Source: Oscillochloris sp. ZM17-4
GTDB lineage: Bacteria; Chloroflexota; Chloroflexia; Chloroflexales; Chloroflexaceae
Direction: 5' to 3'
Length of the DNA: 44,793 bases
NCBI RefSeq assembly: GCF_019599295.1
Contig: NZ_JAIEWN010000009.1
Location: 101,337-146,129 of the forward strand
Shown: positions 104-40,033 of the stretch, piece by piece
Numbering within the stretch: the first letter of the stretch is position 1
How the letters are laid out: every line of letters begins with the position of its first letter
Program-made: the position numbers and the translations under genes
Notes under the pieces: generated by a model
Seen by the model: the letters and a program-made list of their open reading frames with translations, nothing else
Told to the model about the DNA's origin: nothing
Database searches by the model: none

Positions 104-2086
104 TTAGATCGCCAGCCGCACCGCCGGGTCGCCCAGGAGCACATAGTTGCGCGCGTCGTTGCGGGCCATCCAGAGCCGCGCGAGCCGCGCCGGGTTGGGC
201 TGTATGCCGTGGCGTATATCCTCAAGCTCCTTTGTCAGGGTGAGCGAGCGAGCGCCCTGGATGACATTGAACTGGTCGGTGGCGCTGCCCGCCGGCATGC
301 CCTTGAGCAGCCGGCCGATCACGTCCTGGAAGGGCTGGATCTGGCTGTCGGCGCCGCCCTCGACCCCGCTGAACGAGTAGGTCCAGGCCCGCTCGATGTG
401 GCCGAGCACCGCCAGCGCCCCGTGCGCCAGCAGACGCTGCGGCAGCTGGGACACAAAGGAGAAGGGGGCGATCTGTGCGCGTGGCTTGCCCGGCTCAAAG
501 GCAAACTCGTCATGCTGGGGGCAGCCGGCGCTGTAGCAGGCGAAGAGGCAGGCGATCATGCCCGCCACATTCAGGTTGCTCATGGCGTCCAGATCCTCGC
601 CGGCCAGCCAGTGCTCGCGCCTGATGCTGCCATACGCGAAATCTGCGGTTAGCAGGGCGCCCTGGTGCATCACCAGCCGGGCCGGGTCGTCGCTCGACCG
701 CAGGCCAATGCCGTGGGTGGCGCTGAAGAGGATCGCCGGCGGCGCGCTGGCGCTCAGCATCCGCGTCAGATTGTCGCGCGTGGCGTCATCGCCCAGGTAG
801 AGCCTGTGTCCGAACCCGAGCCGGGCGGGGGTCGTGTTCGGCGCGCCACTCCACGCGGCCAGCGGGGTGACCAAGTTCTTGGCGCTGCGCTCGGTCGAGG
901 TGTCGCCCTCGTGGCGTGTGCCGATGAAGGCGATCTCTTTGCGCAGGTGGCTGGCCGCGTCGGCGCGAGTCTCCCAGGCCACCACCTGCTCGGCATAGTC
1001 GCGGTAGGCGTCAAGGCGATGCCGCCCGCTCGCGTCCGTGAAGAGCAGCCGGCCCACCCCCCAGAAGACATCCAGCTCGTACTGGAAGCCCCACGGGATA
1101 AAGACATCGTCGTGGGGGTCGAGCGGGCCGGGCCGGCCGACGATCATCAGGTAGAAGGGCACCCCTTGCTTCGGGTCGACCGGGGCCTGGGAGACGCGGT
1201 GGCGCGTGAGCCAGTTGTTCACTGTCTCGCCGGTGCGCACGAGCAGCACCGGCGGCACCTCGCCCCAGTTGTCCCTGAGGCTCTTCTTGCCATCGTCGGT
1301 GTGGCGGCGGAGCCATGCGCCGCAGGAGCTGTCGCCGCTCTGGAAATCGAGGTTGAGCGGGCGGCAGCCCATCTGGCGCATGCGGTGCTGGATGAGCGGC
1401 GCGAGCGCTTTCAGCACCGCCACGTCCTCCTTCGCCCGCACCACCACCGCCCAGCGCGCCTCTGCGATAGTGTCCTGATCGACATCGGCGATTGTGCCAT
1501 AGGTGTGGATGCCGCCAATGAGTCCCCTGGCGATCGTAACCGCCTCTGGCATGGGCTCTCCGCTCGGCGCAAACTCCTCGCTGCGGCAGAAGGCAGCGAC
1601 CTTTGCCTTGTAGATGCTCTCTACGGCCGTGTCTGGCGGCTTGAACTGCCTGTTCTGGGCCATCGCCACAATGTCGCCAGCGGTGATATGGAGCAGGGGT
1701 TGTCCGGTGTGCGCGTCGATCCCGTTGGGGTAGAGCTCCTCGCCGCCCGCGCTCTGCACCAGATTGCGCTGAGGGGATGCCCCGGCCGGAGCCTGCTGGC
1801 GCGGATTGAGGTGCTGATCGAGAAGCTGGGTCAGCGTATCGTACTCGTTGTGAATATTGACAGGGGTGCTGGTCTGTCTGCCAGTGGAAGTCGTCTGCGC
1901 TATGAACTTGGGGAAATCCCGCCGATGGAACAGCTCGGCCAGCCGCTCGATCAGCGCCTGAATCTTCCGCAGCCTATCGCGCTCCTCCTCCTCCTGATGG
2001 CACCCTAGCTGCTCGACGTGCTGCCCCATGAGCTCAGTGGCCCGCTGAAGCGCCTCGTAGATCGTGTCGTAGGGGTCGGTTGCCAT
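104..2086 (-). CDS. C25-like (caspase/gingipain-fold) cysteine peptidase, paralogue 1
   Basis: A 660-residue protein with a probable catalytic His-Cys dyad. The histidine lies in FSATHGIG (about His458) and the cysteine in LFACYSAGCP (about Cys517), the spacing expected of clan CD peptidases. The C-terminus NDARNYVLLGDPAVRL matches the LLGDPA ending typical of gingipain (C25) relatives. The N-terminal 70 residues are charged and helical, probably a coiled coil, followed by a family-specific region starting near EELYPNGID. There is no signal peptide or membrane segment, so a cytoplasmic location is inferred. I chose ATG 2086, which follows AGGAAG at good spacing; an ATG at 2107 would overlap the upstream stop codon. 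It is last of three same-strand paralogues, probably one operon. Substrate and role are unknown. Confidence 0.75.
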   Translation of the reverse strand: MATDPYDTIYEALQRATELMGQHVEQLGCHQEEEERDRLRKIQALIERLAELFHRRDFPKFIAQTTSTGRQTSTPVNIHNEYDTLTQLLDQHLNPRQQAPAGASPQRNLVQSAGGEELYPNGIDAHTGQPLLHITAGDIVAMAQNRQFKPPDTAVESIYKAKVAAFCRSEEFAPSGEPMPEAVTIARGLIGGIHTYGTIADVDQDTIAEARWAVVVRAKEDVAVLKALAPLIQHRMRQMGCRPLNLDFQSGDSSCGAWLRRHTDDGKKSLRDNWGEVPPVLLVRTGETVNNWLTRHRVSQAPVDPKQGVPFYLMIVGRPGPLDPHDDVFIPWGFQYELDVFWGVGRLLFTDASGRHRLDAYRDYAEQVVAWETRADAASHLRKEIAFIGTRHEGDTSTERSAKNLVTPLAAWSGAPNTTPARLGFGHRLYLGDDATRDNLTRMLSASAPPAILFSATHGIGLRSSDDPARLVMHQGALLTADFAYGSIRREHWLAGEDLDAMSNLNVAGMIACLFACYSAGCPQHDEFAFEPGKPRAQIAPFSFVSQLPQRLLAHGALAVLGHIERAWTYSFSGVEGGADSQIQPFQDVIGRLLKGMPAGSATDQFNVIQGARSLTLTKELEDIRHGIQPNPARLARLWMARNDARNYVLLGDPAVRLAI

Positions 2087-2106
2087 AGGTCTTCCTTGCG
2101 CGATCA

Positions 2107-4002
2107 TCAGATCGCCAGCCGCACCGCCGGGTCGCCAAGGAGCAGATAGTTGCGCGCGTCGTTGCGGGCCATCCAGAGCCGCGCCAGCTGCGGCTTGGGC
2201 TTCGCATCGTACAGGAGGTACTCCAGCTCCTCGGTGAGGGTGAGCGAGCGGGCGCCCTGGATGACATTGAACTGGTCGGTGGCGCTGCCCGCCGGGATGC
2301 CGCGCATGAGCCGGCCGAGCACGTCCTGGAAGGGCTGGATCTGGCTGGTCGTCCCGGCTTCGGTGCCGCTGAACGAGTAGGTCCAGGCCCGCTCGACGTG
2401 GCCGAGCACCGCCAGCGCCCCGTTGACCAGCATGCGCTGCGGCAGCTGGGAGATGAAGGGGAAGGGCGCGATCTGCCGGCGCTGTTTGTTGGCGTCGAAG
2501 ATGAACTCATCCTGCTGGGGGCAGCCGATGCCGTAGCAGGCGAAGAGAACGGCGATCATGCCCTCCACGTTCAGGTCGCTCATGGCGCCCAGGTCCGCGC
2601 CGGACAGCCAGTGCTCGGGCCTGATGCTGCCGTACGCGAAGTCAGCGGTCAGCAGCGCGCCCTGGTTCATCACCAGGCGGCTGGGGTCGCTCATGGGCAG
2701 GCCGATGCCGTGAGTGGCGCTGAAGAGCAGGGCCGGCGGCGCGCTGGCGCTCAGCAATCGGGCCAGGTTGTCTTTGGTCGCGTCTGTGCCGAGCGAGACG
2801 GTGTGTTCAAATTGCCGCTCGACGGGGATCTTGCCGCCCTGGCTCCACGCAAGCAGCGGCTTGACCAGCTCCTCGGTGCTGCGCTCGGTCGAGATATCGC
2901 CCTCGTGGCGGGTGCCGAAGAAGGCGAGCTCTTTGCGTAGGCGGCTGGCGGCGTCGGGGCGCTGCTCCCAGGCCACCACCCGCTCGGCGTAGGCCCGGTA
3001 GTCGTCGATCCGGTGCCGGCCGCCCTCGTCGGTGAAGGCCAGCCGGCCCACCCCCCAGAACATGTCCAGCTCATACTGAAAGTTCAGCGGGATGAATGTC
3101 TGGTCGCTGAGGTCGAGCGGGCCGGGGCGGCCGACGATCATCAGGTAGAAGGGCACGCCCTGCGCGGGGTCCACCGGCGCCTGGGATGTGCCGTGGCGCT
3201 TCAGCCAGGCGTTCACCCGCTCGCCGGACTCCACCAGCAGCACGGGCGGCACTGTGATCTCGTCCCACCGGGGCGTCTGCCCGGGCTGCCAGTGGATCGC
3301 GTCTTTGAATGTCCGCGCGCCGCCATCGGTGTGGCGGCTGAGCCAGGCCCCGCAGGACGTGTCGCCGCTCTGGAAGTCAAAGTCGCGCTTGCCGAAGCCC
3401 ATCTGGATCATCCGGTGCTCGATCAGCGGCCAGAGCGCCTTGAGCACCGCCACATCCTCCTGGGCGTGGATCACCACCGCCCAGCCGGCCTCCTGGATCT
3501 TATTCTGATCGATGTCGGCGATGGTGCCGAGATGCTCGGTGACCAGCGACTTCTTGGCCTCGACCGCGACGTCGAGCGGCGGGTCTGTGCTGCTGCCCGG
3601 GTCGTAGCTGGCTATCTTCTTGCGATGAAGCTGTTTGATCTCCGGGTCGATCTGATACGCCTCATCTCTGGTCATCGCCACCACCGCCGCCGCGTTGATG
3701 CGCAGCAGCGGCATGCCGATAACGCCGTCGATCCCGTTCGGGTAGAGCTCCTCGGACTGCTCGCCGCCCCCGGCGTCGAGCAGGATCAGCGGCGCGCGGT
3801 ACTCGTTCTCCGCCGGTGCGGCTTCCGTAGTCGCCGGCGTATCGCCCGCCGGGGGCGTGGGCGCGAGGGTGGCGGTCGGCGCATCGCCGAGGGCCGCCGC
3901 AAAGCTTTGCTCGAGCTGACCAAGGCGCCTCCCGAGATCACCGTAGTCTTGCCTGATAGCGCGCAGCTGGTCATAGAGCGCGCGGGTCTGCTCATCCGCC
4001 AT
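2107..4002 (-). CDS. C25-like (caspase/gingipain-fold) cysteine peptidase, paralogue 2
   Basis: A 631-residue paralogue of the 104-2086 protein, collinear from the EELYPNGID region to the LLGDPAVRLAI end. The probable dyad is His431 (FSATHGIG) and Cys489 (LFACYGIGCP). The N-terminal 35 residues look like a coiled coil and are followed by an Ala/Pro/Thr-rich linker to about residue 65. The start at 4002 is preceded by GGAAAG with seven-base spacing. The stop codon TGA at 2107-2109 lies 20 bases before the chosen start of paralogue 1, so the two are tightly linked. A 23-residue insertion near DAIHWQPGQT distinguishes it from the other two copies. Function is inferred from the fold only. Confidence 0.75.
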   Translation of the reverse strand: MADEQTRALYDQLRAIRQDYGDLGRRLGQLEQSFAAALGDAPTATLAPTPPAGDTPATTEAAPAENEYRAPLILLDAGGGEQSEELYPNGIDGVIGMPLLRINAAAVVAMTRDEAYQIDPEIKQLHRKKIASYDPGSSTDPPLDVAVEAKKSLVTEHLGTIADIDQNKIQEAGWAVVIHAQEDVAVLKALWPLIEHRMIQMGFGKRDFDFQSGDTSCGAWLSRHTDGGARTFKDAIHWQPGQTPRWDEITVPPVLLVESGERVNAWLKRHGTSQAPVDPAQGVPFYLMIVGRPGPLDLSDQTFIPLNFQYELDMFWGVGRLAFTDEGGRHRIDDYRAYAERVVAWEQRPDAASRLRKELAFFGTRHEGDISTERSTEELVKPLLAWSQGGKIPVERQFEHTVSLGTDATKDNLARLLSASAPPALLFSATHGIGLPMSDPSRLVMNQGALLTADFAYGSIRPEHWLSGADLGAMSDLNVEGMIAVLFACYGIGCPQQDEFIFDANKQRRQIAPFPFISQLPQRMLVNGALAVLGHVERAWTYSFSGTEAGTTSQIQPFQDVLGRLMRGIPAGSATDQFNVIQGARSLTLTEELEYLLYDAKPKPQLARLWMARNDARNYLLLGDPAVRLAI

Positions 4003-4044
4003 GCCAGTTCTTTCCGATATCACGGGGGGCGCCGTCTCACGCGC

Positions 4045-4099
4045 GCGGGAGACGGGGGATAGGGGCGCGGCGATGCCGGCACGCGCCCCTGCCTCCCGC
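4045..4099. other. GC-rich hairpin between peptidase genes
   Basis: An inverted repeat with outer arms GCGGGAG/CTCCCGC and inner arms GGGGCGCG (4062-4069) and CGCGCCCC (4082-4089). It lies in the 123-bp gap between the C1A-C25 gene and paralogue 2. It could attenuate or process the operon transcript. There is no clear U-run, so it is not a classic terminator. Confidence 0.5.
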
Positions 4100-4125
4100 T
4101 CGCCTTCAGACTCCCGGCCGCGCAG

Positions 4126-7056
4126 TCAAATAGCCAACTTCACCGCCGGGTCGCCCAGGAGGGCGTAGTTGCGCGCGTCATTGCGGGCCATCCACAGCCG
4201 AGCCAGCAGCGATGGGTTGGGAATACTGCCACCGATCCCCTGCTCAAGCTCCTGAGTCAGGGTGAGCGAACGGGAGCCCTGGATGACATTAAACTGGTCG
4301 GTGGCGCTGCCGACCGGCATGCCTTGCATCAGCCGACTGACTACATCCTGGAATGGCTGGATCTGCGCCTTTACATTCTCGGTGCCGCTAAACGAGTAGG
4401 TCCAGGCCCGCTCGACATGGCCGAGCACTGCCAGTGCGCCCTTCAGCAGCATGCGCTGCGGCAGCTGAGCGATAAACGGGAAGGGCGCGATCTGCTGGCG
4501 CTTTTTGTTGGCATCGAAGATAAACTCGTCCTTGTCGGGGCATCCGGCACCGTAGCAGGCGAAGAGGAGGGCGATCATGCCGTCCAGGTTGGCGCTGCTC
4601 ATGGCGTCCAGATCCTCGCCGGCCATCCAGTGCTCGCGCTTGATGTTGCCGAACTCGAAGTCTGCGGTCACCAGCGATCCCTGGTTCATCACCAGACGAG
4701 CTGGATCGCTCATTGGTAGGCCGACGCCGTGGGAGGCGGTGAACAGCAGGGCCGGCGGGGTACTGGCGGTCAGCAGCGCCTCCAGATTATTCTTGGTGGC
4801 ATCGTCGCCCAGGTAGATGGTCGGATCCTGGTTGAAGCCGACGCGCTTGACGAACTTGCTTTCCTTGTTCCACTTGACCAGCGGCGCAACCAGCTCATCG
4901 GCGCTGCGCTGGGTGGAGTTATCATCCTCGTGGCGCGTGCCGAAGAAGGCGATCTCCTTGCGCAGGCGATTCGCCGCGTCGGCGCGGGTCTCCCATGCCA
5001 CCACCCGCTCGGCGTAGGTCTTGTAGTCATCGAGGCGGTGGTGGCCGCTCACATCGCTGAAGACCAGCCGTCCCACGCCCCAGAAGAAGTCGAGCTCATA
5101 CTGGAAGTGGAGCGAGATATAGATCTTATCATGAGAGTCGAGGGGGCCGGGGCGACCGACGAGCATCAGGTAATAGGGCACGCCGAGGGCAGGGTCGACA
5201 GGCCCCTGCGAGGTGCCGTGGCGCTTCAGCCAGGCGTTTACAGGTTCGTCGGGGCGCACGAGCAGCACCGGCGGCACCTTCCCCCAGGCGTTGGCCAGAG
5301 TCTTCTTGCCGCCATCGGTGTGGCGGCTCATCCATGCACCGCAGGTGGTGTCGCCGCTCTGGAAGTCGAAGTCGAGCTTGCTGAACTCCATCTGGCGCAT
5401 ACGGTGCTGGACGAGGGGCCAGAGCGCCTTGAGCACCGCGACATCCTCCTCGGCATGCACCACCACTGCCCAGCCGGCCTGCTGGATCTGGTTCTGATCG
5501 ACCTCGCCCGTCGTGGCGAAGGAGCCATGTTCCTTTTCTTTGGCAAGGTTTTGCTCATCCTCCCACGAGCGCTCGCCCTTGGCGAACTTCGCCGCCGTAT
5601 CGGTGTCGATCTTGAGCAGCAGCTGTCCAGTGACGCCGTCGACGCCATTGGCATCTAGCTCCTCGTTATCCTCACTCACTCCTTTGTTTAGGAAGACGAG
5701 CGGCCCCGTATAGGGGATGGTCTCCTCCGCAGGGGCGACGGCTGCCGGTTCCGGCGTAGCTGTGGGGGCGGGCCGGGGCAGCTGAGCAGGTGCAGGTGCC
5801 TCTATTGGCGCGGGGGCAGCCTCGTCCTCGTCCTCGTGCGAAGGCATCGGCACACCCAGGATGCGCTGGAGCCGCGTGGTCAGATCATCGACCTGATCCT
5901 TGAGCCCCAGCAGGTCGGCGTAGATCGCCATCAGGTTATCGCTGCCCTCGCCCGAACTGCCGAGGCGGGCCGATCCGGATTTGCCACGCGAGCCGACCTT
6001 CTTCGGCGGCGCGGCCACCTTCTCCTCGAGGACAATACCGTCGGCCACAAAGGCCACAAGGTTCTGGCGGGACACCAGCAGGAAGGGCATGTGGCAGTAG
6101 CCGGGGCCGTCGCTATTGTCCTTGCCCCAGTCGGGGCCCCAGCTGTTTCGCACAATAAAGTAGCCGCCGCCGGGGGCCGTCGCATCGGTGCGGTAGCCCA
6201 CGACACACATGGCATGGCCGCCCTTTGCTTGTTCGCTGGGCAGCGGGAAGCGCAGCCGGCCCAAGATCGTCGCCTGGGTCGCGCCCGTCCAATGCGAGTA
6301 GATCGGCATACCGATCATCACCGGCTTACCCTCAGCCAGCTGGGCCTGGATCTGGTTCACCCCTGTGCTGCCCTTGGGCTGTAGCTGGGTGAAGCCGCTG
6401 ATCCGGCGGCGTTTCGCCTCATCGTAGGCGGGCGCGGGCGGCGTCGGGCCACCGGGCTGGCTGGTATTAGGCTCAGCGTGGTAGGGCCAGGTTCGCTCGG
6501 TGCAGATTCCCACGTCGCGCAGCAGCTGGATGGCCAGGGCCGGATTCGTACCCACATCGCCGGGGATGCCGTCTCGCTCCTTGCAGAGGTAGTAGAGGAA
6601 CTGCTCCGAGAGGTCGGTCGGGTCGCCGCTGAGGATCTGCAGCATTGAGGCCAGGGTGAAGGCCACGCAGGTGTTGCGCTGGCCTTGGTTCTGCGGGTCG
6701 GGGATGCCCCTGGCCTTGGTCAGCGGCTCAACAGCCTCGGGCAGATCGACCACGGTGGCGAAGGACGCCTCAACCTCAGGCACGCCGGTCATATCCAGGC
6801 CCGCGCCGACCTCAAACTCAACCGCGATGTCGAAAGGCGTATCTTGGGGGAGGGCTGCGTTGACGGCGTCGGCGAGGCTCCCCAGCGTGGCATCATCGAC
6901 GCCCAGGACTGCCGCCAGCGTTTTCCGCCCGCTGAAGTTGATCGTGCTGCGGAACTCCTCGGCCGTCGTGATCCAGTATGGGTCTGCCAGCTTCTTACGG
7001 ATCGTCTCGTCAAACCCGGCGATCCCGTCGAGCGGCGTGAGCGTGCGTTCAGGCAT
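4126..7056 (-). CDS. Fusion of papain-like (C1A) and C25-like cysteine peptidases
   Basis: A 976-residue protein with two separate cysteine-peptidase modules. Residues 1-110 form a helical N-terminal region that may resemble helix-hairpin-helix domains. Residues about 112-340 look like papain: oxyanion Gln124 and nucleophile Cys130 in NQGQRNTC, His281 in GGHAMCVVGY, and Asn304 in VRNSWGPDWG. A coiled-coil segment (about 372-400) and an Ala/Pro-rich linker (about 410-448) follow. Residues about 460-976 are the C25-like module, with His776 in TASHGVG and Cys834 in LFACYGAGCP, ending ALLGDPAVKL. ATG 7056 has a strong AAGGAG five bases upstream; the frame extends further upstream only through heptamer repeats. 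No secretion signal is visible. It is first in a three-gene same-strand cluster and could process or activate the two downstream paralogues, which is inference. Confidence 0.8.
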   Translation of the reverse strand: MPERTLTPLDGIAGFDETIRKKLADPYWITTAEEFRSTINFSGRKTLAAVLGVDDATLGSLADAVNAALPQDTPFDIAVEFEVGAGLDMTGVPEVEASFATVVDLPEAVEPLTKARGIPDPQNQGQRNTCVAFTLASMLQILSGDPTDLSEQFLYYLCKERDGIPGDVGTNPALAIQLLRDVGICTERTWPYHAEPNTSQPGGPTPPAPAYDEAKRRRISGFTQLQPKGSTGVNQIQAQLAEGKPVMIGMPIYSHWTGATQATILGRLRFPLPSEQAKGGHAMCVVGYRTDATAPGGGYFIVRNSWGPDWGKDNSDGPGYCHMPFLLVSRQNLVAFVADGIVLEEKVAAPPKKVGSRGKSGSARLGSSGEGSDNLMAIYADLLGLKDQVDDLTTRLQRILGVPMPSHEDEDEAAPAPIEAPAPAQLPRPAPTATPEPAAVAPAEETIPYTGPLVFLNKGVSEDNEELDANGVDGVTGQLLLKIDTDTAAKFAKGERSWEDEQNLAKEKEHGSFATTGEVDQNQIQQAGWAVVVHAEEDVAVLKALWPLVQHRMRQMEFSKLDFDFQSGDTTCGAWMSRHTDGGKKTLANAWGKVPPVLLVRPDEPVNAWLKRHGTSQGPVDPALGVPYYLMLVGRPGPLDSHDKIYISLHFQYELDFFWGVGRLVFSDVSGHHRLDDYKTYAERVVAWETRADAANRLRKEIAFFGTRHEDDNSTQRSADELVAPLVKWNKESKFVKRVGFNQDPTIYLGDDATKNNLEALLTASTPPALLFTASHGVGLPMSDPARLVMNQGSLVTADFEFGNIKREHWMAGEDLDAMSSANLDGMIALLFACYGAGCPDKDEFIFDANKKRQQIAPFPFIAQLPQRMLLKGALAVLGHVERAWTYSFSGTENVKAQIQPFQDVVSRLMQGMPVGSATDQFNVIQGSRSLTLTQELEQGIGGSIPNPSLLARLWMARNDARNYALLGDPAVKLAI

Positions 7057-7070
7057 TCCAGCTCCTTCAA

Positions 7071-7156
7071 AGATTGCAGATTGCAGATTGCAGATTGCAG
7101 ATTGCAGCATCAGTGTACGATACTCATTTGCGATCAACAATCCGCAATCTGCAATC
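7071..7156. repeat. Heptamer array 2, inverted arms (ATTGCAG)
   Basis: The left arm (7071-7107) has about five AGATTGC units. The short right arm (7141-7156) carries the complementary CTGCAAT-type units. It lies directly upstream of the Shine-Dalgarno sequence of the C1A-C25 gene and so would form its 5' untranslated region. Confidence 0.85.
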
Positions 7157-7214
7157 ACATGCGACTGAGGATGCTCTAAGGTACGATAATCTGTAATTAC
7201 ATGCGGCTGAGGAT
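7155..7214. repeat. Short direct repeat copying the 3' end of punA
   Basis: ACATGCGACTGAGGAT (7157-7172) matches ACATGCGGCTGAGGAT (7199-7214) at 15 of 16 bases. The second copy is the genuine end of punA. On the minus strand both copies read ILSRM followed by a stop codon. The extra copy lies between punA and heptamer array 2. Confidence 0.7.
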
Positions 7215-8015
7215 ACCACGGATGAGCGCGGAGAAGCGGGGCTTGGCCTGCTCGCCGGCCTCCAGCACCTCGGCGTGGTTGGCCGGGGGGCCGTCGGGCA
7301 TGGCCAGGTTGGTGATCAGCGAGAAGCCGAGGACGCGCATGCCGCCGTGGATGGCGACGATCACCTCGGGGGCGGTGGACATGCCCACGGCGTCGGCGCC
7401 CCAGATCCGCAGCATACGGATCTCGGCGGCGCTCTCGAAGGCCGGCCCCGAGAGCATGCAGTAGACGCCCTCGCGCAGCGTCGTGCCCTGCGCTGCGGCC
7501 ACCTCGCGGGCCAGGGGCACCAGCTCGTTGTCGAAGGCGCCGACGACGCCGGGGAATCGCGGGCCGAGCCGGTCGTCGTTCTCGCCGCGCAGCGGGTGGT
7601 TGCCGACCATGCCGGGCAGGAAGATCTGGTCGCTGATCCGCATAATATCGCCCACCTGCCAGTCGGGGCGCAGACCGCCGGCGGCGTTGGTGACGATCAG
7701 TGTCTCGCAGCCGAGCGCCTTGAGCACGCGCACCGGGAAGGCCACCTCCTGCATCGAGTGGCCCTCGTAGAAGTGGAATCGACCGCGCATCGCGGCCACC
7801 GGCTTGCCCTCCATCAGCCCGATCGCCAGCTCGCCGCGGTGTCCATGCACCTTCGGCGCGTGGAAGCCGGGGATCTCGGCGTAGGGCACGACGGCGGCCT
7901 GCTCCAGGTCATCGGCCAGGCCGCCCAGGCCCGAGCCGAGGATCAGGCCGACCTTCGGCGTCACCAGCAGGCGCCCGGCGATGGCGGCGCGCGCCTGCTC
8001 GATTAGTTCGTACAT
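7197..8015 (-). CDS. punA: Purine nucleoside phosphorylase
   Basis: A 272-residue trimeric-type purine nucleoside phosphorylase. It cleaves inosine and guanosine-type nucleosides with phosphate to give base and ribose-1-phosphate (cytoplasmic purine salvage). Family signatures are GSGLGG near residue 27 (phosphate binding), GRFHFYEGHS, TNAAGGL, GPAFESAAE, GMSTAPEV and the base-binding ITNLA near residue 240. Length and motif order are complete. ATG 8015 is preceded by GAGG at short spacing. A long heptamer array lies immediately upstream. The gene is separate from the neighbouring PH/SHOCT gene by 218 bp and is probably transcribed alone or by read-through from it. Confidence 0.95.
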   Translation of the reverse strand: MYELIEQARAAIAGRLLVTPKVGLILGSGLGGLADDLEQAAVVPYAEIPGFHAPKVHGHRGELAIGLMEGKPVAAMRGRFHFYEGHSMQEVAFPVRVLKALGCETLIVTNAAGGLRPDWQVGDIMRISDQIFLPGMVGNHPLRGENDDRLGPRFPGVVGAFDNELVPLAREVAAAQGTTLREGVYCMLSGPAFESAAEIRMLRIWGADAVGMSTAPEVIVAIHGGMRVLGFSLITNLAMPDGPPANHAEVLEAGEQAKPRFSALIRGILSRM

Positions 8016-8211: not shown

Positions 8212-8235
8212 CCTGTCCCCTGTCCCCTGTCCCCT
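8212..8235. repeat. Heptamer array 3, partner arm (CTGTCCC)
   Basis: Just over three units of CTGTCCC, running into the stop codon (8234-8236, minus strand) of the PH/SHOCT gene. It can pair partly with the CAGGGTA array at 8023-8106. The 105 bp between the arms hold nothing I can recognise. Confidence 0.8.
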
Positions 8236-8926
8236 AAATCCGGCTCAATAATTCTTTCTTCTTCGCCTCGAACTCATCGGTCGAGAGGATGCCGCGCTCG
8301 CGGAGGGCGGCGAGCTCCTCCAGGGTGCGCTGGATATCGCCGGCGGACATTGAGGGGCGCTGCTGGGGGCTCTGGTAGCTCTGCGGGTCGAGGTAGCCGT
8401 AGCCGCGCTCGTGGTTATGCTTGGCGTCGAGCATAGCCTTCTTAAACTCCAGCGGCCCTTCGATCCGATCCATCACATTGATCGCATCATCTGAGGCGGT
8501 GAGGATCTCAACCGTGCCGAAGTTCATCATGCGGCCGATCAGGGTTTGGCGCAGCTCCACATCATTGATCTTCTCCAGCGACGAGTCGATCACCCGCTTG
8601 TTGACGATGCCGCGCACCTGGATGACCCGCCGGTCGGTGATCACATACTGCTCGGTCGTCCAGCGCAGATAGTCCATAAAGCCGCTGATCATGACGATCA
8701 CGCTGATCACCACGCAGAGCAGGAGGATGAGGCTGCTGGCGGTGAGGCTGCCGATGAGCGGGGTGGTGTTGGTGCTGAAGGCCCAGTTTGACGCGACCCC
8801 GGCGGCCACCAGGACGGCGATGAGCGTCAGTTCGGCGAGGATATTGGCGATGAGGACGAAGAGGTGCTGGCGGGCGATGTAGATAATCTGCTCCCCGCGC
8901 CCCAGCAGCTGGTCGATGTATGCCAT
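8234..8926 (-). CDS. Membrane protein with bacterial PH (YdbS/bPH2-like) and SHOCT domains
   Basis: A 230-residue protein. Two transmembrane helices lie at about residues 20-45 and 58-85. A bacterial PH-like domain follows (YVITDRRVIQVRGIVNKRVIDSSL, then FGTVEIL), and a C-terminal SHOCT motif (DIQRTLEELAALRERGILSTDEFEAKK) ends the protein. Such proteins sit in the membrane with the PH domain in the cytoplasm; a specific role is not known. ATG 8926 follows AAGGAG at seven-base spacing. The gene starts 11 bp after the recO stop codon, so it is probably co-transcribed with recO. Confidence 0.85.
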   Translation of the reverse strand: MAYIDQLLGRGEQIIYIARQHLFVLIANILAELTLIAVLVAAGVASNWAFSTNTTPLIGSLTASSLILLLCVVISVIVMISGFMDYLRWTTEQYVITDRRVIQVRGIVNKRVIDSSLEKINDVELRQTLIGRMMNFGTVEILTASDDAINVMDRIEGPLEFKKAMLDAKHNHERGYGYLDPQSYQSPQQRPSMSAGDIQRTLEELAALRERGILSTDEFEAKKKELLSRI

Positions 8927-8937
8927 GATGGAACTCC

Positions 8938-9693
8938 TTATTCGCCGCGCATCACGTCCTGGAGAAAGGCCACCGACTTCAGATCGCGCTCGAGCAAGTT
9001 GCGTAGGTAGCTCCGCATCAGCTCCTCGGCCTCGCCGCGCACCGCCGTTGAGAGGTGGAGCGCCTCGATGGCGCTCATGGGCTGGCTCTGGAGGTAGCGT
9101 AGCAACCGGAACGCCGGGCCGCTCATCGCCATCGCGCGCTGGTCGGCCTTGCGGTCGCGTGGGCAGATCACGCCGCCGAGCTGCGGGCTGAAGCGGTCGG
9201 CGTCCTCGGCGAGCAGATCACCGCACACCGCGCAGTTGTGGAGGTGCGGTCGGTAGCCGGCGATATGGAGCAGGCGTAGCTCGTAGGCGCGCAGCACGAG
9301 ATCGGGGTTCGCACTCTGATCGATGGCTGTGAACGAATCAACGAGCAGCTGGAAGAGCGGGCGATTCTCCTCGCCATCCTCAGTGAACTTGTCGTAGAGC
9401 TCTGCGATGTAGTAGGCGCGACTCAGGCGTGCGATCTCGGCGCGCATCTGGGGGAACGAGCTAATTATCTGGCTTTGGGTGATGATATCGAGGTTCCGCC
9501 CGACGGCGAGGAGCATGCTGGTGTGGGTGAAGAGCTCGATGTGGCCTGCGATACGGCTGGTGGTCTTGCGGACGCCCTTGGCCACCACGCGGCTCTTGCC
9601 GGCAGGCGTGGCGATGAGCAGCAGCCGGTCAGCCTCCGCGAAGTCGCTGCGCCGTAGGATCACCGCCTCTGTTCGATAAACGCGCTCGCGCAT
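8938..9693 (-). CDS. recO: DNA repair protein RecO
   Basis: A 251-residue RecO, which helps RecR load RecA onto SSB-coated single-stranded DNA in recombinational repair. The N-terminal OB fold starts RVYRTEAVILRRSDFAEADRLL and contains GVRKTTSRIAGHIELF. The C-terminal helical domain has the zinc-site remnant CAVC and a later CPRD, so the fourth cysteine of the usual CxxC...CxxC is replaced. I chose ATG 9693, with AGGAAAA upstream; the frame upstream is not RecO-like. The gene heads a two-gene unit with the PH/SHOCT gene and has a sigma-70-like promoter at 9813-9841. Confidence 0.93.
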   Translation of the reverse strand: MRERVYRTEAVILRRSDFAEADRLLLIATPAGKSRVVAKGVRKTTSRIAGHIELFTHTSMLLAVGRNLDIITQSQIISSFPQMRAEIARLSRAYYIAELYDKFTEDGEENRPLFQLLVDSFTAIDQSANPDLVLRAYELRLLHIAGYRPHLHNCAVCGDLLAEDADRFSPQLGGVICPRDRKADQRAMAMSGPAFRLLRYLQSQPMSAIEALHLSTAVRGEAEELMRSYLRNLLERDLKSVAFLQDVMRGE

Positions 9694-9812
9694 ACTATTT
9701 TCCTGCGCAGCCCGCGTATGCACGCGGGCGCGTGCGTGTGATGAGGCTGTGAGAGACCCCTTGGTGCATCGGCATTCGTTGTCCCGAAGTGCTCGCATCT
9801 CGCAATGGCCCT

Positions 9813-24044: not shown

Positions 24045-25609
<1,565 letters not shown>

Positions 25610-25610
<1 letters not shown>

Positions 25611-25683
25611 TTGCAGATTGCAGATTGCAGATTGCAGATTGGATTACAAAGTAATCTGCAATCTGCAATCTACAATCTGCAAT
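25610..25683. repeat. Heptamer array 9, inverted arms (ATTGCAG) between atpA and atpG
   Basis: The left arm 25610-25647 and right arm 25651-25683 fold around an AAA loop. The left arm has four to five ATTGCAG units; the right arm has the complements with one substitution. It starts at the atpA stop codon and ends just before the atpG ribosome site. Confidence 0.95.
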
Positions 25684-25693
25684 GGAGTGCGAT

Positions 25694-26569: not shown

Positions 26570-28026
<1,457 letters not shown>

Positions 28027-28027
<1 letters not shown>

Positions 28028-28094
28028 TTGCAGATTGCAGATTGCAGATTGCAGATTTTCACAATCTGCAATCTGCAATCTGCAATCTGCAATC
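28027..28094. repeat. Heptamer array 10, inverted arms (ATTGCAG) between atpD and atpC
   Basis: The left arm 28027-28056 and right arm 28062-28094 have four exact units each and a five-base loop. It starts at the atpD stop codon and ends at the atpC ribosome site, filling the whole gap. Confidence 0.95.
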
Positions 28095-31337: not shown

Positions 31338-31370
31338 GATTGTAGATTGTAGATTGCAGATTGCAGATTG
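31338..31370. repeat. Heptamer array 11, single arm (AGATTGC/AGATTGT)
   Basis: Nearly five 7-bp units in the leader of the 31413 kinase gene, with no inverted partner. This is the one array not close to a stop codon. Confidence 0.9.
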
Positions 31371-38719: not shown

Positions 38720-40033
38720 CTATCTCATCGGCCTCTGTTCACGCTGCTGGCCCGCACCGATCAGGCGCAGATCGTACTGCCCAGCGCTCCGCTGGCGGAG
38801 CTCGAAGAGATCCGGGTGCGCCTGGAGCAGCAGGCCGAGGCGCGCATAGCCGTGCCGCTTCGGCGTAAAGGCCGGGTCGAGCTGCTTGAGCTGCTGGCCG
38901 AGCGCGGTCATCGGTAGCCAGCCATCCTGCTTGGCGGCCTGCTGCCAGGCGGATTCCAGCAGCGCCCGCACCGCGCTCTGCTGCGGCGCGACCGGCGAGC
39001 GCAGTGCCCGCAGCACAATCTGGTGGGCCGGATTGTCGGCATCCGGCTGGACACTGAACAGATCGTCGCGCTGCTTAATCAGCTGCGCCAGCCGGGTATG
39101 GCCGTAGGTCTGTGGCTGAAGCTCGGGGTGGCGCCGCTGCAGCTCGTTCACAAAGTTCGAGAGCGAGACCGCGCCACGCGCCTGGCGCACGCCCTCCCAC
39201 ACCGCGATCAGCAGCGGCCCGACATCAGCGATACCAGCCGAGGCTTTCGTGGGCTTCGGCGCGGGCGCGGGGGCTTTCGCGGGCTTCGGCGCGGGCGCGG
39301 GGGCTTTCGCGGGCTTCGGTGTGGGCGCGGGGGCTTTCGCAGGCTTCGGTGTGGGTGCAGCGGAGGGGGGCGCTGCTGCGGACGTATGGGGCACCACCCT
39401 GGGTGGCGGGGAAGGCAGAGCCGGCGATCCGGTCAGCTCCTCCAAGGTCAGAAAGACGCTGCTCACCTGCACCAGCGAGGGCAGCGTCTGGGCGCGACCG
39501 ATCACCACCACGGTGCGCTGGGCCGCGCGGAGGCGGGCGACCAGCGGGGTGTAGTCGCTATCGCTGGCGACGATGCAGAAACAGTCGATAGCCCCGCCGT
39601 GCAGCAGATCCATCGCATCAATCGTCAACAGGATGTCGGTGGCGTTCTTGCCGGTCGTGGTGGGCTCGTGATGGATCGGCTGGATGGCGTGGCGTGCGAC
39701 CGGCTCAAGCCAGCCGCGCGTGCTCGCCGCCGCCCAGTTAGCGTAAACCCGGCGCACGCGAACGGTGCCAAACTCACCCGCCTTGGCCAGCACATGGGCC
39801 GCGACGCCGGGCGCGCAATTCTCCCCGTCGATGAGCAGGGCCACCGATGGCGCTGCCGCACGCGCCGTTGCCGACCCAGGTGTCACACCTTCCGGCGCGC
39901 AACGCTCCGCGCGGTCGAGCAGATCAGCCGACGGCTCGCCCGGCGCGAGATCAGGTGCCTGACCGAGCGTCCGCAGCATGACTTGATACGGCGTCGCAAC
40001 CCAGCGTGTAAACCAGCTCTCGTTTGGATTCAT
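38720..40033 (-). CDS. NYN-domain (PIN-like) nuclease with two LOTUS/OST-HTH domains
   Basis: A 437-residue protein. The NYN domain (about 62-205) has the acidic metal-site residues Asp69 (LLIDGENC), Asp133 (NATDILLTIDAMDLL) and Asp158/Asp160 (VASDSDYTPLV), which suggests RNase activity. A linker of four 10-residue Ala/Pro/Lys repeats follows (about 225-263). Two OST-HTH/LOTUS domains come next (about 270-345 and 365-425; each with a GHTRL/GYARL...DDLF/PDLF pattern), which in other proteins bind RNA. The arrangement resembles LabA/MARF1-type proteins. The N-terminal 60 residues are not recognised. The ribosome site before ATG 40033 is weak. Confidence 0.82.
   Translation of the reverse strand: MNPNESWFTRWVATPYQVMLRTLGQAPDLAPGEPSADLLDRAERCAPEGVTPGSATARAAAPSVALLIDGENCAPGVAAHVLAKAGEFGTVRVRRVYANWAAASTRGWLEPVARHAIQPIHHEPTTTGKNATDILLTIDAMDLLHGGAIDCFCIVASDSDYTPLVARLRAAQRTVVVIGRAQTLPSLVQVSSVFLTLEELTGSPALPSPPPRVVPHTSAAAPPSAAPTPKPAKAPAPTPKPAKAPAPAPKPAKAPAPAPKPTKASAGIADVGPLLIAVWEGVRQARGAVSLSNFVNELQRRHPELQPQTYGHTRLAQLIKQRDDLFSVQPDADNPAHQIVLRALRSPVAPQQSAVRALLESAWQQAAKQDGWLPMTALGQQLKQLDPAFTPKRHGYARLGLLLQAHPDLFELRQRSAGQYDLRLIGAGQQREQRPMR
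39242..39361. repeat. 30-bp minisatellite inside the NYN-LOTUS gene
   Basis: Four tandem 30-bp copies encode the APxPKPAKAP repeats of the linker. Copy number could vary without frameshift because the unit is a multiple of three. Confidence 0.9.

Follow-up and report, generated by a model that had tools for sequence, protein, structure and literature searches.

Enzymes with the gingipain fold are familiar chiefly as virulence proteases secreted in gum disease. They belong to family C25 of clan CD, a clan whose fold is also found in TPR-CHAT (Csx29/Craspase) and SAVED-CHAT, cytosolic proteases that are switched on by an immune sensor. In the gingipain RgpB, the catalytic His and Cys follow strands β3 and β4 (PMC4357240). 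In the NTP-dependent conflict systems of multicellular prokaryotes, caspase-fold peptidases are accompanied by α/β-hydrolases, STAND NTPases and adaptors, and the caspase domains of VMAP systems always have an α/β-hydrolase neighbor; neither C25 nor gingipain appears in the text of that work (Kaur et al., 2020; PMC7159879). NCBI already names some cytosolic members of the family described below 'C25 family cysteine peptidase', and a literature search found no description of cytosolic C25 proteins or of papain-C25 fusions, which is not proof of their absence.

The array and its surroundings

The stretch of DNA analyzed here (the window) comprises 44,793 nucleotides of Oscillochloris sp. ZM17-4. 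As the initial annotation had it, three adjacent paralogous ORFs on the minus strand, here called g1, g2 and g3, are intact (Table 1), with 58-62% identity to the first of the three over the aligned length. Each carries the dyad motifs ATHG/ASHG...FACYxxGCP and terminates in ...LLGDPAV(R/K)LAI, so that the LLGDPA ending noticed at the outset is indeed common to g1, g2 and g3. The cluster was then counted as three genes, but the array has four: a further paralogue, g4 (L012:13136-15196, minus strand), lies just outside the window, directly downstream of g1 on the far side of a scaffold gap of 100 N. LLGDPA and both dyad residues are preserved in it, but its last residues are different and reach into the end of a gene resembling MurJ by sequence appearance. 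The genome (6.7 Mb) holds two more family members elsewhere, a second papain-C25 fusion of 996 aa at C123 and a protein of 670 aa at C107, and the copy number within the genus ranges from one to four, these numbers being lower bounds since the contigs are draft.

Table 1. Features of the array and of its conserved neighbors in the window (positions count from the first nucleotide of the window)
Feature	Position	Strand	Details	Basis
g1, C25-like protease	104..2086	-	660 aa; dyad H458 (713-715) and C517 (536-538)	ORF list, alignment
g2, C25-like protease	2107..4002	-	631 aa; dyad H431 (2710-2712) and C489 (2536-2538)	ORF list, model
g3, papain (C1A) - coiled-coil linker - C25/gingipain-like fusion protease	4126..7056	-	976 aa	ORF, Pfam, AlphaFold2, VIA-align
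g3, C25/gingipain-like domain	4129..5724	-	dyad H776 (codon 4729-4731) and C834 (codon 4555-4557)	
g3, linker of low confidence	5725..6009	-	one long helix (residues 372-400)	pLDDT <50 at 350-373 and 403-444
g3, papain domain	6028..6825	-	residues 78-343; catalytic Q124, C130, H281, N304	
g3, N-terminal helical module	6847..7056	-	residues 1-70	model helices 17-68
Purine nucleoside phosphorylase (PNP), conserved upstream neighbor of the fusion	7197..8015	-		Pfam 2.3e-52; synteny
bPH_2-SHOCT protein, conserved neighbor	8234..8926	-		Pfam; synteny
RecO, conserved neighbor	8938..9723	-		Pfam; synteny

The ATG at 7056 is the better start of g3, because the GTG at 7158 is merely an in-frame start upstream and only extends the frame through an intergenic GATTGCA repeat. 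This tandem heptamer, often in facing pairs, lies between genes of the window at 74-98, 7072-7156, 25609-25684, 28026-28094 and 31338-31369; perfect 25-mers of it number 430 genome-wide against 0 for a reversed control, and we take it to resemble the heptameric STRR repeats of cyanobacteria. Duplication of the protease genes by recombination at the flanking heptamer was considered and rejected, as the repeat occurs everywhere in the genome and is absent between g1, g2 and g3.

The surroundings of the array are a housekeeping locus. Neither Pfam nor reading of the neighbors revealed a STAND, adaptor or toxin gene adjoining it, no NTPase switch of the kind that would mark a STAND-NTPase conflict system was seen in its neighborhood, and no CRISPR genes were noted beside it. 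Farther away in the window, an NYN nuclease with OST-HTH/LOTUS domains is encoded at 38720-40033.

The C25-like module

Structure prediction lends good support to a peptidase module of the gingipain fold (clan CD, family C25) in the window proteins. AlphaFold2 models of g3 and g2 had pLDDT values of 86.3 and 85.5. Residues 511-976 of the g3 model matched RgpB with a Z of 22.8, and the g2 model, which is without a papain half, aligned by its residues 156-631 with RgpB 1-348 (Z 22.1, 315 aa, 3.6 A) and matched Kgp with a Z of 20.5, the RgpB matches of the models extending over some 310 residues; the C25/caspase fold predicted in the initial annotation is borne out by these best matches. After the gingipains, the g2 matches were TPR-CHAT/Craspase, separase, SAVED-CHAT, metacaspase, MALT1 and legumain, the two CHAT forms being next best (Z 13-16). 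The gingipain match covers both subdomains of the catalytic fold, includes the GDP-containing C-terminal strand, and ends where the gingipain Ig-like domain starts; g2 itself stops where residue 348 of the 432 of RgpB aligns.

The match to gingipains comes from fold comparison only: a PDB sequence search with the family profile found no gingipain. PADLOC and NCBIfam were uninformative on the window proteins. For Pfam PF01364 (C25), these proteins scored 17.3, 13.2 and 17.8 bits, below the cut-off of 23 bits, and relatives within the same tree family scored 27-32 bits; the window proteins therefore form a distant C25-like subfamily rather than typical C25. They do not qualify as CHAT by Pfam PF12770 either (cut-off 24 bits), g1 reaching 21.5 bits and g2 and g3 not being listed, and they have neither the TPR nor the SAVED domain of the CHAT proteases.

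The catalytic dyad proposed for these proteins is kept: both His and Cys occur in all window copies and in 114 of 115 relatives. The single exception, which has V and A in their place, is a protein of 1786 aa from a sister genome (L063:5485-10845), a natural pseudo-protease whose C25-like N-terminus has no dyad and which resembles CHAT in a stretch close to its C-terminus. A profile alignment was made with 23 bona fide C25 domains of the phylum, since hhalign of a single sequence with a single C25 protein gave too weak a signal; in it (global probability 97.7, E 9e-12; local 61, E 8e-5) the dyad pairs with the GHG His and the C25 Cys. In the g2 model, H431 comes right after core strand 423-429 and C489 right after core strand 483-487, like the residues after β3 and β4 in C25; as far as strand placement and alignment show, the two residues may well lie near each other, as the dyad of the initial annotation requires.

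Unlike gingipains, the window proteins have no Ig-like domain and no secretion tail, and a hydropathy scan showed no signal peptide and no TM-like segment in them (within the first 45 aa, no 19-residue Kyte-Doolittle mean exceeded 0.24), which agrees with the original reading that secretion signals are lacking. They are presumably cytosolic. A cytoplasmic set had been expected to be unusual; it departs from the secreted C25 enzymes, but it is not unique, for it belongs to a large cytosolic subfamily that extends across several phyla.

The papain half of g3

The N-termini were formerly taken for different targeting parts on one catalytic design, but that of g3 is a whole papain protease and those of the others are the short coiled-coil linker that stayed on when the C25 half was duplicated. 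In alignment, the N-termini of g1, g2 and g4 prove to be homologues of the g3 linker. Pfam Peptidase_C1 recognizes g3 at 56.6 bits (cut-off 20.7; 5e-15), model residues 78-343 match xylellain (3ois) with a Z of 27.6, and the Q-C-H-N tetrad is complete, features which among the window proteins place g3 alone in the papain family C1A. The tetrad is likewise complete in every one of the 19 fusion loci that were checked, among which L064 repeats the window copy. In contrast to xylellain and other papain-family enzymes, g3 is fused to a C25-like domain and carries an extra N-terminal helical module. The latter is present in all fusions and also in a protein of another Chloroflexota family (L184:497-2347), which shares the papain domain of g3 but has a different C-terminus.

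Relatives and their neighborhoods

One scan of 84,980 species gave 293 relatives, 80 of which were kept; these come from Chloroflexota, Cyanobacteria, Acidobacteria, Planctomycetes, Desulfobacteria and a few other groups. Among the relatives, seven plasmid records and no phage members were found. Most of the 80 are 460-700 aa long, and they often carry at the C-terminus an extra domain of some 100 aa whose counterpart is encoded on its own by a small adaptor-like neighbor gene (hhalign 99.1%, E 1e-18). The STAND-linked forms have this domain and the window proteins lack it.

In Cyanobacteria, Acidobacteria and other Chloroflexota, the single-domain relatives adjoin nSTAND1-WD40, CHAT/SIR2, α/β-hydrolase and adaptor genes. 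A STAND/CHAT-cluster gene is close by in 44 of the 80 loci, and such genes account for 72 of 361 near genes against 7 of 296 distant genes of the same loci (OR 10; p 2e-13, an optimistic value, as the loci were picked by similarity and hold many close Nostoc sequences). When 26 neighbors were scanned, nSTAND1 with WD40 was present in 16 and CHAT in 15, with CHAT and SIR2 together in L115. The gene order at STAND-linked loci is typically CHAT-SIR2, nSTAND1-WD40, C25-like, c15 and c16, and in cyanobacteria usually α/β-hydrolase, C25-like and STAND, where the hydrolase label depends on sequence motifs (GHSFG elbow) in genes that Pfam does not match. Four STAND-C25 operons have upstream a C39-like gene (cluster n8), a papain-fold type judged by sequence appearance. 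These partners and the kinds of host are those of the NTP-dependent conflict systems (Kaur et al., 2020; PMC7159879), in which the constant α/β-hydrolase neighbor of the VMAP caspase domains is a close parallel, and the link to regulatory or cell-death systems suggested earlier is plausible from the STAND neighbors of the relatives, whereas the window array has no adjoining NTPase partner.

Other arrangements also occur. A Nostoc gene (L123:9971-13192) joins C25-like, CHAT and AAA_35 domains in one chain, and L079:9646-12183, next to a gene that resembles a metalloprotease, is a fusion of a C25-like domain with a carbon-nitrogen hydrolase. In the ZM17-4 genome, a single-domain C25-like gene (L058:5920-9591) is followed by c15, c16 and a SufE-looking gene and is preceded by a pair that looks like a response regulator and a histidine kinase, an arrangement conserved in the genus.

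The fusions themselves differ in their neighbors. The main fusion locus has no STAND-type partners; a second fusion lineage stands beside two NACHT-FGE genes, in divergent orientation, in one sister genome (L056), and the second fusion of the ZM17-4 genome is near HEPN_Swt1-TPR and CHAT genes. A scan of this genome for nSTAND1 gave matches that most control genomes also show at weak scores, and therefore only strong matches are meaningful.

Evolutionary history

In a tree of 75 C25-like domains, all sequences of the papain-fusion lineage fall into a single clade (SH-aLRT 97), separate from the single-domain family. Within the tree, g1, g2 and g4 group together (SH-aLRT 99); closest to them are the C25-only copies from two sister genomes, followed by the fusions of the genus. 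From this placement, the fusion is the older form in the lineage, and the downstream copies of its C25 half are later additions. The papain half was found in 21 and the C25-like half in 22 of the 23 genomes sampled from the same family, and RecO, PH-SHOCT and/or PNP lie beside the fusion in most loci of Chloroflexaceae-like genomes long enough to show them. It is thus well supported that the fusion is ancestral, an old gene passed on vertically in the Chloroflexaceae-like family, and that its C25 half gave rise to the C25-only copies within the genus Oscillochloris. Codon-model omega is 0.13 for g1/g2/g4 and 0.085 for the fusions; therefore, all of them are under purifying selection. Simple dN/dS counts (0.4-0.7 for the copies of ZM17-4) had suggested relaxed or diversifying selection, an interpretation rejected because a GC3 of about 0.9 biases such counts and the codon model gives 0.13.

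Possible mechanism and alternatives

The reading tentatively preferred here, at a little short of an even chance, is that the array encodes cytosolic caspase-like processing proteases of a STAND-type conflict lineage, which were fused to papain, domesticated and tandemly duplicated. From the fold, the dyads, the missing export signal, the history and the relatives' neighborhoods we infer a catalytic activity, an activation step, targets and a biological outcome as follows. The founding gene encodes a protease with two heads, of which the N-terminal one is papain (C1A) and is connected through a flexible coiled-coil linker with a C25-like domain; duplication of its C25 half downstream gave three C25-only copies that retain the dyad and are under purifying selection. 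A held-back processing protease is proposed because the C25-like family is at home in STAND-NTPase conflict operons, which combine an nSTAND1-WD40 sensor, a CHAT-SIR2 effector, an α/β-hydrolase and a small adaptor. Under stress or infection, a signal passed on by an NTPase or adaptor would release the C25 head to make specific cuts in target proteins, and these cuts may free or activate the papain head of the same chain (in cis) or the C25-only copies (in trans).

Against this conflict-derived reading, the position of the array in a housekeeping locus fits an ordinary physiological role equally well, and the window proteins are without the adaptor-like C-terminal domain. Such a plain housekeeping role, nearly as likely as the conflict-derived processing protease and a possibility to be taken seriously, would make the proteins intracellular processing or turnover proteases, the fusion a housekeeping gene of the family, and the copies duplicates for dosage or substrate range, with no link to immunity or cell death. 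First, the fusion is a single-copy gene with synteny to PNP, PH-SHOCT and RecO conserved across genera. Second, it is present in nearly all genomes of the family and under strong purifying selection. Third, no conflict genes adjoin the array. However, the strong tie of the single-domain family to STAND/CHAT/SIR2 genes, and the position of the second fusion lineage beside NACHT-FGE or near CHAT and HEPN_Swt1-TPR genes, speak for the conflict-derived processing protease.

It is rather improbable that the two heads are a zymogen pair, in which the papain head would mature its own C25 head and the neighboring C25-only proteins in a two-step protease cascade. The intact papain tetrad of all fusions checked, the flexible low-confidence linker between the heads, the start of the C25-only copies in a homologous linker and the C39-like gene (by sequence appearance) upstream in four STAND-C25 operons are consistent with it, but no cleavage site was identified, and C25-only members outside the Chloroflexaceae-like family have no papain partner; a papain-first cascade, which only the fusion suggests, is put forward as a testable idea only. 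Least probable by far are pseudo-enzymes or scaffolds that bind partners instead of cutting proteins, since the dyad of all window copies and of 114 of 115 sequences and the papain tetrad are intact, even if the L063 protein indicates that a non-catalytic role exists in the wider family.

Implications

The more interesting facts are those that the initial annotation could not show: the fusion to papain, a fourth copy, vertical inheritance and a cytosolic C25 family linked to STAND genes. In the boldest reading, whose probability must be called low, filamentous bacteria would possess an intracellular executioner of immunity or cell death that forms a new class, a protease with a papain and a gingipain head derived from a widespread STAND-linked cytosolic C25 family, which would run a proteolytic cascade with tandem C25-only copies. 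The four-gene array and the single-copy relatives make the question testable, and the papain-gingipain fusion offers a compact model of a protease cascade in a filamentous phototroph. If a cytosolic C25 branch is truly tied to NLR-like STAND switches, it would be a third type of caspase-fold executioner, beside caspases/metacaspases and CHAT.
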